NCBI GenBank assembly: GCA_030377895.1 | Contig: JAUCGB010000007.1 | Span: 1-64,000, forward strand | DNA from: Anaerolineales bacterium HSG24 | GTDB lineage: Bacteria; Chloroflexota; Anaerolineae; 4572-78; J111 | Reading direction: 5' to 3' | DNA length: 64,000 nucleotides | In this document: positions 3 to 60,642 of the stretch, piece by piece | Layout: every line of letters begins with the position of its first letter | Numbering within the stretch: position 1 is the stretch's first letter | The notes under the pieces: model-generated | Databases searched by the model: none | Seen by the model: only the letters and a program-made list of their open reading frames with translations | What the model was told of the DNA's origin: nothing | Made by a program: the position numbers and the translations under genes

Positions 3-2078
3 CCAGAAGGGGCGAGGATTGCCACCCTCTGTAGCGCAAACGATTTGTCTATGCCGATACCGTTTTACACTTACGGTTATCGAGATGTGGGCTATCGAGA
101 AGGTGTACCGGCTGAGGGGAGGTTGCTTGGTCAGGCGATGAAGACCGAAAGCTACTCGCTGTTGTTGGACACGACCCAGATTGGGCCTGGCATGAGTGGC
201 TCGCCGTTGTATATCCCGCAGGTAGACCGAGTGGTGGGGGTGGTGACGGCGGTTTGGACTAAACGAACAGAGATAGGGGTAGACCACAATACCTCTTTTG
301 CCATGCCTGCGGAGGAGATTCAGCGGTTGTGGCCGGAGTTGGTTTTTGAGCCGCCCCAACCAGACCGGCCCGATATCCCCCAAGATAAACCTCCCCGCCC
401 AAAGCCGTTTATAGACCGCAAAGCCGAGTTAAAAAAGTTACTGGCTCAACTGCACCCGGGCCAAACCGTGACCCTGTGCGGCCCGGGCGGCATGGGTAAA
501 ACCGCCCTCGCTAGTGAAGCGATTTGGCAGTTAGCAACGGATCGTTTTCCCGATGGGATTATTTTTCATAGTTTTTATGATTTTCCCCAAACCGATATTG
601 CCCTAGAGTATATCATCACCTCGTTGGGGGGACAGGCCGAGCCGCCTTTAGATTTGACGGCTAAACGCTTGTTGGCTGGCAAACGGCTGTTGTTATTGCT
701 GGATGGGGCTGAGGATGCCGACGATTTGAAACGGTTGCAAAAACTAACGGGCAGTTGTGGGATCATCATCACTAGTCGCAAACGGAGCGATGCCCCCAAC
801 CCTCGACAACGCCAAGACATAACTCCCTTGCCTGCTGACGAGGCTCTGACCCTGCTCAAAACCCTAATCTACCCGCAAGCTCAGAGCTTGCGGGTAGATG
901 ACGACCGCGAGTTAATCCAAATTCGTGACATATTGGGTGGTTGGCCGTTGGCGGTGCGATTGGTTGGCCGATATTTGGCCGAAACTGGCGAACCGTTGGC
1001 CGACTATTTAGATTGGCTAAAAGAGACCCCTTTAGCCGCCTTAAGTCATGGTGATCACCGTCAAGAAAGCGTTACAGTTTTGTTAGAGCGCACCATAGAC
1101 CGGCTGAGTGAGGGAGCTAAGGAGCTACTGAGTTTAACCTGTCTGTTAGCCATTGCCCCCTTTAAGCGAGATTGGCTAACCAGTGCCTTAGACAAATCAT
1201 TTAACCAACTACGACCAGCCTTTAACGAACTAACCGGCTATGGCCTGCTCCAATCCCTAAAGGTTTCTGAAACCTTTAGGGATTCTGCACCACAGTACCA
1301 ACTCAGTCATGCCCTAATTCATACCTACATCCGACACGAAGTTACTCCTTTAGGGAGTGAACAACTTAAACTCTCAACTGAACTGATTGAGCAGTTAGAA
1401 AAGACCCTTTTAACCGAAGCCAATCAAATCAACAATGCCGGCTACCCTTTGGCTATGACATGGTCAAACCATCTGCGAGTTATCACCGATTTAGCCATTG
1501 CCCAAAGCCACCAGCCCGCGGCAGGTTTAGCCAATGAATTGGGCTACTATCTGAACTCGATTGCCAATTACGAGGCGGCCCGCCCCTATTTCGAGAAGGC
1601 CCTAGAGATCAATCGGGAGGTGTTGGGCCAGCGGCACCCGGACACGGCTCAAAGCCTGAACAACCTTGGGGCATTGCTGAGAGCGATGGGTGATTACGAG
1701 GCGGCCCGCCCCTACTACGAGAAGGCCCTAGAGATAAGGAGGGAGGTGTTGGGCCAGCGGCACCCGTCCACGGCTCAAAGCCTGAACAACCTTGGGTTTT
1801 TGCTTCAAGCGATGGGGGATTACGAGGCGGCCCGCCCCTACTACGAGAAGGCCCTAGAGATCAATCGGGAGGTGTTGGGCCAGCGGCACCCGTTGACTGC
1901 GAGTAGCCTGAACAACCTTGGGGGATTGCTTGATTCTATGGGGGATTACGAGGCGGCCCGCCCCTACTACGAGAAGGCCCTAGAGATCCATCGGGAGGTG
2001 TTGGGCCAGCGGCACCCAGACACGGCGACTAGCCTGAGGTGTTGGGCCAGCGGCACCCGTCCACGGCGACTAGCCTGA
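3..2078 (+). CDS. Trypsin-like / NB-ARC (STAND) / TPR protein, 5'-truncated by the window edge
   Basis: The frame is open to the window's left edge, so the true start lies upstream; the first internal start is a TTG at 45. Counting from 45, residues 1-70 are the end of a trypsin-like serine protease domain with the GMSGSP motif (nucleophile Ser about 51). An NB-ARC ATPase follows: P-loop GPGGMGKT at 146-153, Walker B LLLLLDGAED near 215, GGWPLA near 305. From about residue 510 come kinesin-light-chain-like TPRs of 42 residues (GDYEAARPYYEKALEI) that are nearly identical in DNA. Proteins of this layout are STAND NTPases; in multicellular bacteria such protease-STAND-repeat proteins are thought to be conflict or defence sensors, with the TPRs binding a trigger and the protease as effector. 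The frame ends at a TGA created by a partial repeat deletion; two further TPR fragments follow in other frames. Function is inferred. Confidence 0.85.
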   Translation, partial: PEGARIATLCSANDLSMPIPFYTYGYRDVGYREGVPAEGRLLGQAMKTESYSLLLDTTQIGPGMSGSPLYIPQVDRVVGVVTAVWTKRTEIGVDHNTSFAMPAEEIQRLWPELVFEPPQPDRPDIPQDKPPRPKPFIDRKAELKKLLAQLHPGQTVTLCGPGGMGKTALASEAIWQLATDRFPDGIIFHSFYDFPQTDIALEYIITSLGGQAEPPLDLTAKRLLAGKRLLLLLDGAEDADDLKRLQKLTGSCGIIITSRKRSDAPNPRQRQDITPLPADEALTLLKTLIYPQAQSLRVDDDRELIQIRDILGGWPLAVRLVGRYLAETGEPLADYLDWLKETPLAALSHGDHRQESVTVLLERTIDRLSEGAKELLSLTCLLAIAPFKRDWLTSALDKSFNQLRPAFNELTGYGLLQSLKVSETFRDSAPQYQLSHALIHTYIRHEVTPLGSEQLKLSTELIEQLEKTLLTEANQINNAGYPLAMTWSNHLRVITDLAIAQSHQPAAGLANELGYYLNSIANYEAARPYFEKALEINREVLGQRHPDTAQSLNNLGALLRAMGDYEAARPYYEKALEIRREVLGQRHPSTAQSLNNLGFLLQAMGDYEAARPYYEKALEINREVLGQRHPLTASSLNNLGGLLDSMGDYEAARPYYEKALEIHREVLGQRHPDTATSLRCWASGTRPRRLA
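867..899. repeat. 33-bp perfect palindrome inside the STAND gene
   Basis: Arms of 15 bp (ATCTACCCGCAAGCT) around a 3-nt loop. The same CCCGCAAG core hairpin recurs between genes near 25.48, 27.99, 31.99, 34.58 and 60.59 kb. Here it is translated in frame as part of the NB-ARC domain (about residues 275-285). Confidence 0.9.
1252..1284. repeat. Second 33-bp perfect palindrome inside the STAND gene
   Basis: Arms of 15 bp (AATCCCTAAAGGTTT) and a 3-nt loop, again exactly 11 codons and in frame (about residues 403-413). The CCTAAAGG core recurs between genes near 32.92, 38.82 and 44.64 kb. Confidence 0.9.
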
Positions 2079-20936: not shown

Positions 20937-21116
20937 ATTAAATAAGTTGCGCGTTTGTAGTAGGCGATTCATCGCCTTCAGACGGCACTAAAGTGCCTAC
21001 TACGGGTAGTCCTGCACAAGTAGTGATGGAAATCCGGAGTGCAAGGCTTGCCTTGCATGCAAAGCAAGCTTTGCACTCCGGATCACTCCACTCATCTGCA
21101 CCACTCCTTAACTACC
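20937..21116. repeat. Adjacent palindromic repeats, including one GGTAGT-framed element
   Basis: AATAAGTTGCGCG end, a GTAGTAGGCGATTCATCGCC / AGTGCCTACTAC element (20957-21003), then an element framed by GGTAGTCCTGCAC (21005) and ACTACC (21116) with a GGAGTGCAAGGCTTG-type core hairpin. Confidence 0.75.
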
Positions 21117-25366: not shown

Positions 25367-25544
25367 GGCTACCAACTTAACGTGCGACAGATAATATCGT
25401 AACACAGTCTTTAGACTGTGCGGCACAGGCTGAAGCATGTGCTACATGTCTCGGCTTACATTGGTAGTCCTGTGATCACCTACCCGCAAGTTCCAAACTT
25501 GCGGGTAGGTAACTGACATATATCACTACTTCTGCACCACTACC
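25367..25544. mobile_element. R1 MITE joined to a GGTAGT-framed element
   Basis: 25367-25462 is an R1 copy (GGCTACCAAC end) whose right end runs directly into GGTAGTCC of a second element (25463-25544) with a CTACCCGCAAG core hairpin and CACTACC end. No target duplication remains. Confidence 0.7.
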
Positions 25545-27961: not shown

Positions 27962-27989
27962 GATAATCCTCGTCTGATTTTTCAAGACC

Positions 27990-28023
27990 AACCTTCCCGC
28001 AAGTTCTAAACTTGCGGGAAGGT
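27990..28023. repeat. CCTTCCCGCAAG core palindrome
   Basis: ACCTTCCCGCAAGTT and its reverse complement around a 3-4 nt loop. Just downstream (28045-28077) is an R3 end fragment (TATCGGGTAGCAAG). Confidence 0.8.
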
Positions 28024-28134
28024 AACGGCCTAATTACTGTTTTAGCTTTTCCTAAACTACTTTATCGGGTAGCAAGAGCAGTAATTCATTTACCATTTAT
28101 AATTCACCATTCACCATTTATAATTACTAAGGCC

Positions 28135-31960: not shown

Positions 31961-32068
31961 GTAGTAGGCACTTCAGATCCGGATCCGTTAGCTACCCGCA
32001 AGTTCTAAACTTGCGGGTAGCTGACCCTACTACTTCAGTGCCTTTGAGGGCGATAAATCGCCTACTAC
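31961..32068. repeat. Palindrome inserted into another palindromic repeat
   Basis: A GTAGTAGGCACTTCAGTGCC-type element (intact reverse copy 34635-34680) is split by 31977-32031, which holds a GCTACCCGCAAG core hairpin. ACTTCAG is duplicated at 31970-31976 and 32032-32038. Confidence 0.85.
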
Positions 32069-32878: not shown

Positions 32879-32887
32879 GATGTCTTT

Positions 32888-32984
32888 AGATGTTCAGATA
32901 ATGTTTTGCAGTTCAATACCCTAAAGGTTTCTAAAACCTTTAGGGTCTGTCTATCCGAGTGAAAATCTTTATCTGAAAGACTGT
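32888..32984. repeat. TTCAGATAA-framed element with CCCTAAAGG core
   Basis: Outer ends AGATGTTCAGATAA and TTATCTGAAAGACTGT; core CCCTAAAGGTTT. Almost identical to 44611-44711; at 34533-34634 the same frame holds a CCCGCAAG core instead. Confidence 0.85.
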
Positions 32985-33051
32985 TGAAGAGGAACAGGTA
33001 ATTGTGGCGATAATCGCCAACCGCTTAATCTTGGCGAAAACTGCTTGTTAT

Positions 33052-33089
33052 AAAACCACCGTCTCATGTGTAATGAGGGGGTGGTTTTT
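33052..33089 (+). terminator. Intrinsic terminator
   Basis: AAAACCACC and GGTGGTTTTT arms with a loop of about 19 nt. Confidence 0.65.
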
Positions 33090-33155
33090 AGCTTTGTCTT
33101 CAGTGCCGATTTAAGCATTTTTATAATTCTAGCCTAATCGTTAGGAGGGCGTAAA

Positions 33156-33227
33156 ATGATTATAAATCTGGATAACCAGATGGTTATCCACGAAGATTCG
33201 TCAAGTCGGATGAATCGCCCAAATTAG
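33156..33227 (+). CDS. Possible 23-residue ORF with DnaA-box palindrome
   Basis: ATG with an optimal Shine-Dalgarno (TAGGAGGGC); translates as MIINLDNQMVIHEDSSSRMN then RPN. The ORF overlaps a 9-bp-arm palindrome (TGGATAACC-AGAT-GGTTATCCA, 33169-33190) built from the same word as the parA iterons, and 18-bp GATGAATCGCCCGAATCG-type repeats (33209-33260). It may equally be a regulatory region. Confidence 0.3.
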   Translation: MIINLDNQMVIHEDSSSRMNRPN

Positions 33228-33276
33228 ATGAATCGCCCGAATCGGATGAATCGCTAAATCATGATATACTTCACGC

Positions 33277-34464
33277 ATGTCAAAAAATAACTCACACTCA
33301 TATTGTTTTTTTAATCATTCGGCAAAGCGATCATTGGATATAACTTTGACCGTTGGGGAGTTAATGCCCCCTTCGCCATTTAGCCAACTGTTGATTGAGC
33401 AGATGGAAATTCTGCCCCATGAGACGATTCTTGATTTAGGAGCGGGAACGGGAGTTGTCAGCCTTGCCGCTCGGCAATTGGGCGCGGGCGCGTTGTCTAT
33501 GGTTGATGTAGAACGTAATACATTAGAAATTATCTCGACCAATCTGAGCTTGAATCAGGTCGATTCGACCAATGTAACCGTTAAGCAGAGCGACCTGTTC
33601 AAGTCGTTAAATGGTGATAAGTTCGACCATATCTTAATCAACCCCCCTTCCATTCCGACCCCGCCCGACCAATCTTTATCATCGGCTTACGACTCCGGCC
33701 CTTTTGGCCGAGCAATCCATGACCCGGTTCAACACACGGCCAAATATTATCTCAACCCCGGTGGCCGACTGACCATGGTGCATGGTTCTCTGTGCAACCT
33801 TGAGTTATCGTTGCAGAACCTCACCCAGAATGGATTTAGCTATGATCTAGCTGGCCCGTTTGAGTTTCCCTTCCGTGATTTTTACGCGGTTGATTATTTT
33901 CAGAAGTTGGCCGAACAGGGGCAAGCCAAAATCATCAAACGAAATGGAAAGCTCTACGAAGAGCGGTATGTCATCAAAGCCAAACTCGATCAGCCAACTT
34001 TGCCACGAGCTTTGGTTTTTTTGAGAGAGCAGGGTGTCAGCTATCGCCTGCTACCTCACAAAAAAATCGCCAAAACAGTTGAATTGGCCGTTGAGGAGCG
34101 AGGCGTTCCCGTTGAGGAGATGGTCAAATGTATTTTGTTGAAGGACAAAAAAGGCCGTTTTGTGTTAGCTTGTTTAACCGGCGAGGCCACGCTCAACACC
34201 CAAGCCGTGCGGAAATATGAGGATGGTTTGACTCGGCTCTCTTTTGCCTCGCCCGAAGAAATTAGCACCATGCTGGGGTATCAACTGGGGTCGGTGGCCC
34301 CGCTAAATCTGCGGCAGTCGATTCCGGTGGTGCTAGATAATCAGATTAAATCCCAAACTAAGTTAAACATCAGCTCAGGCGATCCCCGTTTAGGATTAGA
34401 GCTTGAGACTGAAACATTATTAAATCTTTTAGACCAGCCAATCTTTGGCGATATTAGTAATTGA
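33277..34464 (+). CDS. Methyltransferase fused to a YbaK/ProX-type editing domain (395 aa)
   Basis: Residues 30-215 form a class I AdoMet methyltransferase (ILDLGAGTGVVSLAARQLGA, VDVERN) with the NPPS motif of N-methylating small-domain enzymes (HemK/RsmC-like). Residues about 235-395 form a YbaK/aminoacyl-tRNA deacylase domain (ALVFLREQGVSYRLLPHKKI, EMVKCILLKDKKGRFVLACL, FGDISN). YbaK proteins hydrolyse mischarged tRNA. The ORF is continuous through the junction, so this is a true fusion unless assembled wrongly. The pairing hints at a link to tRNA or translation quality control, but no substrate is known. Confidence 0.75.
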   Translation: MSKNNSHSYCFFNHSAKRSLDITLTVGELMPPSPFSQLLIEQMEILPHETILDLGAGTGVVSLAARQLGAGALSMVDVERNTLEIISTNLSLNQVDSTNVTVKQSDLFKSLNGDKFDHILINPPSIPTPPDQSLSSAYDSGPFGRAIHDPVQHTAKYYLNPGGRLTMVHGSLCNLELSLQNLTQNGFSYDLAGPFEFPFRDFYAVDYFQKLAEQGQAKIIKRNGKLYEERYVIKAKLDQPTLPRALVFLREQGVSYRLLPHKKIAKTVELAVEERGVPVEEMVKCILLKDKKGRFVLACLTGEATLNTQAVRKYEDGLTRLSFASPEEISTMLGYQLGSVAPLNLRQSIPVVLDNQIKSQTKLNISSGDPRLGLELETETLLNLLDQPIFGDISN

Positions 34465-34532
34465 ATGTAACCGGAGCGCAATAGCTTATGTGAGACGGAG
34501 CGCAAAGCTCGCTTTGCCAGCAAATACCGTTT

Positions 34533-34683
34533 GTACAGTCTTTCAGATAATGGTTTTCAATTCAAGACCAACCTTCCCGCAAGTTCTAAACTTGCGGGAA
34601 GGTAACGGCTGAAAATGTTTATCTGAACATCTATAGTAGGCGATTTATCGCCCTCAAAGGCACTGAAGTGCCTACTACGAACT
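34533..34683. repeat. TTCAGATAA-framed element with CCCGCAAG core, followed by TAGTAGGCGATT element
   Basis: Frame ACAGTCTTTCAGATAA ... TTATCTGAACATCTA (34533-34634) encloses ACCTTCCCGCAAGTT palindrome; directly followed by an intact TAGTAGGCGATTTATCGCC / AGTGCCTACTAC unit. Confidence 0.85.
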
Positions 34684-38782: not shown

Positions 38783-38873
38783 AGTGCGAATTAAGAATTA
38801 AAAATGAAGAATTAAGTGTGGAAGACCCTAAAGGTTTATAAAACCTTTAGGGTCTAAACTGGCCTAAACGTTC

Positions 38874-44610: not shown

Positions 44611-44711
44611 TATAGATGTTCAGATAATGTTTTGCAGTTCAATACCCTAAAGGTTTCTAAAACCTTTAGGGTCTGTCCATCCGAGTGAAAATCTTTATCT
44701 GAAAGACTGTA
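44611..44711. repeat. TTCAGATAA-framed element with CCCTAAAGG core
   Basis: Near-identical to 32888-32984, including core CCCTAAAGGTTT and the flanking GTCTGTC-ATCCGAGTGAAAA segment. Confidence 0.85.
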
Positions 44712-53639: not shown

Positions 53640-53838
53640 GAGGTGAGGCGTGAAACGTGAGGCGTGAGGTGATAACGTTTCTCAACAATTTTCACGTGAC
53701 GCTACAAGCGTCACCTACGATAACTGGAGGTCACGCTTGTAGCGTGACAATAACCTGAAAAAGATTATCTGAAAGACTGTAGTTCACGTATTCACGTATT
53801 CACGTATTCACGTATTCACGTTTCACGTTTCACGTTTC
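53640..53838. repeat. TTCACGTA tandem repeats and CGCTTGTAGCG hairpins between kinase and regulator
   Basis: GTGAGGCGTGAAAC-type repeats (53640-53685), two GTGACGCTACAAGCGTCAC-type hairpins (53696-53752), a TTATCTGAAAGACTGTA end, then five TTCACGTA units and three TTTCACG units (53782-53836). Confidence 0.8.
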
Positions 53839-57378: not shown

Positions 57379-57468
57379 GGTAGTGGTACAGATGTAGTGA
57401 GAGGAGTGCAAAGCTTGCATGCAAGCCTTGCACTCCGGATTTCCTATCACTACTTGTGCAGGACTACC
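57379..57468. mobile_element. GGTAGT-framed MITE with 8-bp target duplication
   Basis: Ends GGTAGTGGTACAGATG and TTGTGCAGGACTACC; core AGTGCAAAGCTTGCATG; flanks GGATTATT at 57371-57378 and 57469-57476. It is inserted in a degenerate ACACGGATAA repeat. Confidence 0.92.
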
Positions 57469-60569: not shown

Positions 60570-60642
60570 GGTAATGGTGCAGGTTAGCTACCCGCAAGTT
60601 CTAAACTTGCGGGTAGCTGACCACTACCTATGCAGGACTACC
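60570..60642. mobile_element. GGTAGT-framed MITE with 8-bp target duplication
   Basis: Ends GGTAATGGTGCAGG and TGCAGGACTACC; core GCTACCCGCAAG palindrome; flanks CTTTTTTG at 60562-60569 and 60643-60650. Confidence 0.9.

Follow-up and report, generated by a model that had tools for sequence, protein, structure and literature searches.

Palindromic cores shared by several MITE families, and also found alone, in an uncultured Chloroflexota genome

The window (the whole stretch of DNA analyzed here, 64,000 nucleotides) comes from an Anaerolineales MAG of an uncultured Chloroflexota (G000; 4.04 Mb in 206 contigs, ~75% complete), and its sister genome HSG25 (G001) is the sole other member of the genus among 200 relatives. 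Short palindromes, here termed cores and designated by letters, lie nested within longer palindromic frames in this window, and further cores stand alone, either between genes or within them (Table 1). The catalogue of repeats was compiled from 1.50 Mb of G000 and 1.26 Mb of G001 (2.77 Mb), and core A was searched for as CCCGCAAGTT-N(0-8)-AACTTGCGGG, counted per strand. All of the sequences named in a first-pass annotation of this DNA are present where it had placed them. The frame TTCAGATAA...TTATCTGAA encloses core CCCTAAAGG at 32893-32977 and 44619-44703 and core CCCGCAAG at 34542-34627, and the frame GGTAGT...ACTACC encloses CCCGCAAG at 25463-25544 and 60570-60642 (left end GGTAAT) and GTGCAAGGCTTG at 21005-21116 and 57379-57468. 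A correction concerns the copies at 25463 and 60570: both are F2 elements, and one arm of each has small deletions. The nested repeats are non-random: core A (CCCGCAAGTT-N3-AACTTGCGGG) has 219 copies per strand in the 4.04-Mb genome and the reversed pattern has none, a difference far beyond chance.

Table 1. Frames, cores and remnants located in the window.
Feature	Position	Strand	Description
Solo core A	867..899	+	ATCTACCCGCAAGCT-CAG-AGCTTGCGGGTAGAT; in frame, NACHT-like ORF 45-2078, peptide IYPQAQSLRVD
Solo core B	1252..1284	+	AATCCCTAAAGGTTT-CTG-AAACCTTTAGGGATT; in frame, NACHT-like ORF 45-2078, peptide QSLKVSETFRDS
MITE F2 with core G	21005..21116	-	GGAGTGCAAAGC...GCTTTGCACTCC
MITE F2a with core A	25463..25544	-	core 25483-25505; small deletion, one end
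F1A interior remnant	27980..28034	-	core A 27996-28018; TIRs lost
F2b inner part, ends missing	31977..32031	+	core A 31995-32017; 55 nt
MITE F1B	32887..32983	+	TIRs TAGATGTTCAGATAA / TTATCTGAAAGACTG
Core B of F1B copy 32887..32983	32919-32945		CCCTAAAGGTTT-CTA-AAACCTTTAGGG
MITE F1A	34536..34633	-	TIRs as in F1B, opposite orientation; TA each side
Core A of F1A copy 34536..34633	34571-34603		33-bp palindrome ACCTTCCCGCAAGTT-CTA-AACTTGCGGGAAGGT
Solo core B	38824..38854	.	intergenic, between two genes
MITE F1B, second copy	44613..44709	+	core B 44645-44671; TA each side
F1-type end with core H	53690..53781	-	GTGACGCTACAAGCGTCAC double hairpin; opposite end diverged
MITE F2 with core G	57379..57468	+	
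MITE F2b with core A	60570..60642	+	core 60591-60613; internal deletion on left; 8-bp duplication CTTTTTTG

Copies of F1 are ~97 bp long, have terminal inverted repeats (ends TAGATGTTCAGATAA and CAGTCTTTCAGATAA), and in most cases are bordered by TA on either side; the F1B copy at 32887..32983 has TT on each side instead. For one F1A copy, homologous repeat sites are empty and hold a single TA, which identifies the TA as a target duplication. Among the 200 relatives, the F1 end occurs in both members of this genus and in two matches in one other genome, and nowhere else. Within 1.50 Mb of G000, F1 carries core A (n = 20) or core B (n = 9) and never core G, while rarer F1-type frames carry cores H, E, I, and J; one of these, F1e (TATAGATGTCCAGATAAATTCTG...CCAAAACTTTTCTG), carries core E, H, or A. 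Two further loci (L061 and L032) are candidates for a common F1A insertion, with flanks too diverged for proof. The whole F1 interior may be inverted between F1A and F1B, for which the comparison is only suggestive; the arms of the two have similarity z values of 3.8 and 4.5 when compared crosswise, and of 2.2 and 3.6 when compared in parallel.

The F2 copies, which also have terminal inverted repeats, measure 91 bp with core A or ~102 bp with core G, have the ends GGTAGT...ACTACC, and lie between 8-bp direct repeats. At two F2a loci, the orthologous site in G001 is cleanly empty, and the 8-bp target is present there once (400-bp flanks, 80-84% identity). Taken together with the empty F1A site, these establish the inserting unit: in F1A and F2a, it is the frame together with its core that transposes. 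The cores in F2 copies from the same 1.50 Mb are A (n = 29), G (n = 27), D (n = 1), and others (n = 11), with no instance of B. In one F2a element (L134:7687-7796), a full core D hairpin (CTCGTTCCCAATC...) stands in place of the left half of core A, possibly through direct replacement of one core by another. A half F2 element, consisting of core A and the right end only (L025:18700-18860), lies between 18-bp direct repeats, AAATTCCGATATTATCTA, the last bases of which extend the hairpin arm. A third MITE family, F3, has a ~20-bp end (TCTTTGGGGCTTTCCGTGCAA) and long TIRs, and occurs mainly in the sister genome.

The modular anatomy of these repeats is apparent from how cores are shared among frames. 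F1 houses cores A, B, E, H, I, and J, and F2 houses A, G, and D; conversely, core B occurs in F1 and alone, and core A occurs alone and in F1, F1e, F2, and F3, so that at least four frames have core A in common. Cores A, B, C, D, G, and I are all found without any frame. The first-pass annotation had inferred from such combinations that cores move independently of frames, and had allowed that a full catalogue might instead bind each core to a single frame. The catalogue does not do so, and the several frames per core, several cores per frame, and solo cores bear out part of the claim, but free movement of the cores does not follow: all members of a MITE subfamily have the same core and a uniform interior throughout, F1 never has core G, F2 never has core B, and frame and core transpose together. 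A frame of the same MITE with no core at all was searched for and not found, so no core is directly seen to have entered a pre-existing frame. The distributions of cores and frames also differ. Core A has 317 copies in G001 and none in the 198 other relatives or in IMG/VR viral contigs, while core B (CCCTAAAGG) is present in 33 of the 200 relatives, spanning 27 genera. Given the solo occurrences and the several unrelated host families, sequence comparison indicates that core and frame have separate histories, with their pairing fixed inside any one family. Core C (AAACCCGATTTC...GAAATCGGGTTT) is ~10x more numerous in G001 (114 copies in 1.26 Mb) than in G000 (12 in 1.50 Mb); its flanks recur (TTCAGTAA..., ...GGCGAGTTCAC), and it may therefore be one more MITE family.

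At one place in the window, a palindrome (GTAGTAGGCACTTCAGTGCC) is split by a 55-nt insert, 31977-32031, with ACTTCAG on both sides (31970-31976 and 32032-32038; 7 bp). It had been described as a hairpin that split another palindrome with a 7-bp duplication. The split and the paired ACTTCAG are confirmed, but the insert is more than a core alone: it matches the F2b interior (ATCCGGATCCGTTAGCTA-core-TAGCTGACC) without its ends, and intact F2 gives 8 bp. As the duplication is one base below the F2 norm, the insert most likely stems from an F2b insertion that has decayed; less likely, the inner unit jumped there on its own. The surrounding sequence (31962-32068) is a two-hairpin repeat (TAGTAGGCGATTTATCGCC...GGCACTGAAGTGCCTACTA), a second copy of which, at 34634-34677, abuts the F1A element at 34634.

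Several solo cores lie in frame within large genes. Clean DNA-level empty sites for solo cores were looked for and none was found, so protein alignments were used instead; no consistent target duplication flanks the solo copies. The peptide encoded by core B is TLKVSKTFRV in each of two unrelated genes; in the NACHT-like ORF of the window it is SLKVSETFRD. At or beside the core B hairpin of one gene (L138), 10 residues are missing in 13 of 13 orthologues (41-55% identity); ~12 residues are missing in all three orthologues of another (L129), and ~9 residues in all seven for the core B at 1252-1284. For a core A in a gene (L057), 10 residues are missing in one covering homologue and 8 in another, while for the core A of the NACHT-like ORF the homologue gaps span just 4-7 residues and constitute weak evidence of an in-frame gain. 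In-frame solo cores with orthologue gaps are best read, on these alignments, as gains of a micro-palindrome by the gene. The two species' versions of a TIR-CHAT-NACHT-TPR-like gene (L070:4636-7998 / L119:6072-10748) are 97% identical over 1.9 kb, against a background of ~82%, yet differ by several in-frame palindromic inserts, of which APPQPPPKGGKPVPPPFGRGLGGGL is present only in G001.

The hairpins themselves vary in two ways. In the main F1A haplotype, with identical frames, the 3-nt loop reads TAG in 12 copies and CTA in three; the orientations are split 3/3 in one of the other F1A haplotypes and as one TTG to three CAA in another, and both also occur in F1B, F2a, F2b, and F3. Two genes, 97% identical over 1.9 kb beside the site, differ by a loop flip between the two species. 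In addition, the five bases outside an intact core A read ACCTT, ATCTT, AGCTA, ACCTA, ATCTA, ATTTT, or ATTTA, and all seven variants occur perfectly complementary across the hairpin. Within the 10-bp core arm, by contrast, most single changes are uncompensated (11 of 100 compensated), although many of the uncompensated ones come from unrelated chance sites. In published work (PMC8794818, PMC8604942), loop inversion and arm homogenization mark template switching at inverted repeats; the flips and complementary arm variants fit this mechanism, which may have acted here.

The probable explanation, in our assessment, is that the MITEs gained independent SDR/RPE-like micro-palindromes a few times, and that each host MITE then spread its core. 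The outer frames are MITE ends, F1 inserting at TA, F2 with an 8-bp duplication, and F3 with long inverted ends, each presumably mobilized by a transposase in trans. The inner cores A, B, D, G, and I would form a separate class of ~30-35 bp palindromes that also occur alone (A and B in frame in genes), and would have entered MITE centers a handful of times; amplification of a core by its host MITE would then leave one core per subfamily. The uniformity of the subfamilies, along with the co-transposition of frame and core, suggests that cores were exchanged only a few times, probably at the birth of each subfamily. In the hairpin arms, polymerase template switching or arm-arm recombination could keep complementarity while the sequence changes, and could flip the loop. 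We infer the direction of transfer, from core to frame, and the existence of the transposases.

An autonomous element with F1 or F2 ends was not found in the 2.77 Mb sampled (the MAG being ~75% complete). F1 has the TA duplication of IS630/mariner elements, but the corresponding IS630-type DDE_3 domain (PF13358) has no match in G000; IS1595 models have no match in G000 or G001. Long stretches with F1 or F2 ends around a gene proved, in nearly all cases, to be neighboring MITE copies around ordinary genes, and the only one without inner ends (L032 17127-18466) has no recognizable transposase ORF.

A more tentative reading, to which we give limited credence, is that the cores are self-standing mobile units of ~30-35 bp that favor the tips of palindromes, are tolerated in frame, and colonize MITEs. 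Core B would be such a unit across the Anaerolineae, and the cores would move by a route that is possibly hairpin-templated. If the cores are indeed self-mobile, they would be among the smallest mobile DNAs known.

It is unlikely, though conceivable, that the frames were instead built around the cores by a snap-back: at a solo core beside a transposon end, the replication fork would have folded back and laid down an inverted copy of that end. Such an origin would account for the position of the cores, which is always at or near the MITE center, and for the likeness of the F2 ends (GGTAGTGGTGCAGAAGTAGTG / GGTAGTCCTGCACATGTAGTG) and the TTTTCA that the F1 subterminal arms have in common; the template switching involved would also explain the loop flips. 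However, the two arms resemble each other only in the terminal repeat and in the 5-8 bp nearest the core, and their middles differ in F1A and F3; a palindrome that began as a perfect one would give this pattern only if it were old.

Selection for a host function is much less probable still. Under this reading, several MITE families would have acquired, or converged upon, a core that works as an RNA hairpin, a terminator, or a protein site, as the same 33-bp palindrome at the center of three unrelated families and the paired arm changes might suggest; but neither strand has a T-run after the hairpin, a search of the window against Rfam returned no match, solo copies lie within genes, and many different cores serve one frame. 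Least credible of all is a REP/REPIN system moved by a RAYT (an IS200/IS605-like Y1 transposase), although the first-pass annotation had proposed looking for a RAYT or an IS608-like TnpA: the hairpins are short and of high copy number and the genome has four Y1_Tnp matches, but neither a core nor an F1 or F2 end lies in the 1.7-3.3 kb examined around any of the four, the flanks of solo cores (read by eye) have no constant GTAG/CGTC tag at the hairpin foot, and the frames have inverted ends with 8-bp or TA target duplications. To our knowledge, Y1 (IS200/IS605) transposition does not make such duplications with inverted ends.

These results tell apart the transposing MITE and the micro-palindrome it carries, which annotation of bacterial repeats usually treats as one thing. 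On identical frames, many copies have flipped loops and paired changes in the arms, a natural record that fits hairpin template switching, and the in-frame solo cores with orthologue gaps make the spread of ~30-bp palindromes in bacteria directly testable.

F1 and F2 resemble known MITEs in size (~100 bp), inverted ends, target duplication, lack of an ORF, and tens to hundreds of near-identical copies. Unlike in usual MITEs, most interiors here consist of an unrelated perfect hairpin whose type is also found free of any MITE, and one hairpin type is common to families with different ends. The arrangement had been called unusual for REP or MITE elements, which is partly true, but the nesting of palindromes itself has precedents. 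Section 7 of PMC3733652 describes REP dimers inside longer palindromes (A. variabilis GTAG-15, H. neapolitanus CGTC-1, T. roseum GTAG-23), which, like the cores, are short palindromes within longer ones; compared with the dimers as described there, the cores have no GTAG/CGTC tag, one core occurs in several frames, and the frames transpose with the core. A second precedent is the cyanobacterial SDR5, which inserts at the center of the HIP1 palindrome (Elhai et al., 2008, as cited in PMC4390886); cyanobacterial SDRs are, by that description, very small dispersed repeats like the cores, in hosts of another phylum. The template-switch mutations of PMC8794818 and PMC8604942 have the same paired arm changes and spacer inversion, but the marks observed here, unlike those cases, recur over mobile-element copies with identical frames. 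Rickettsia palindromic elements (RPE), ~150 bp long, lie in frame in unrelated genes (reviewed in PMC10969869). As in SDRs and RPEs, the cores are dispersed outside larger elements and occur also in frame in genes; they differ from RPEs in being only ~30-35 bp long and mostly intergenic.
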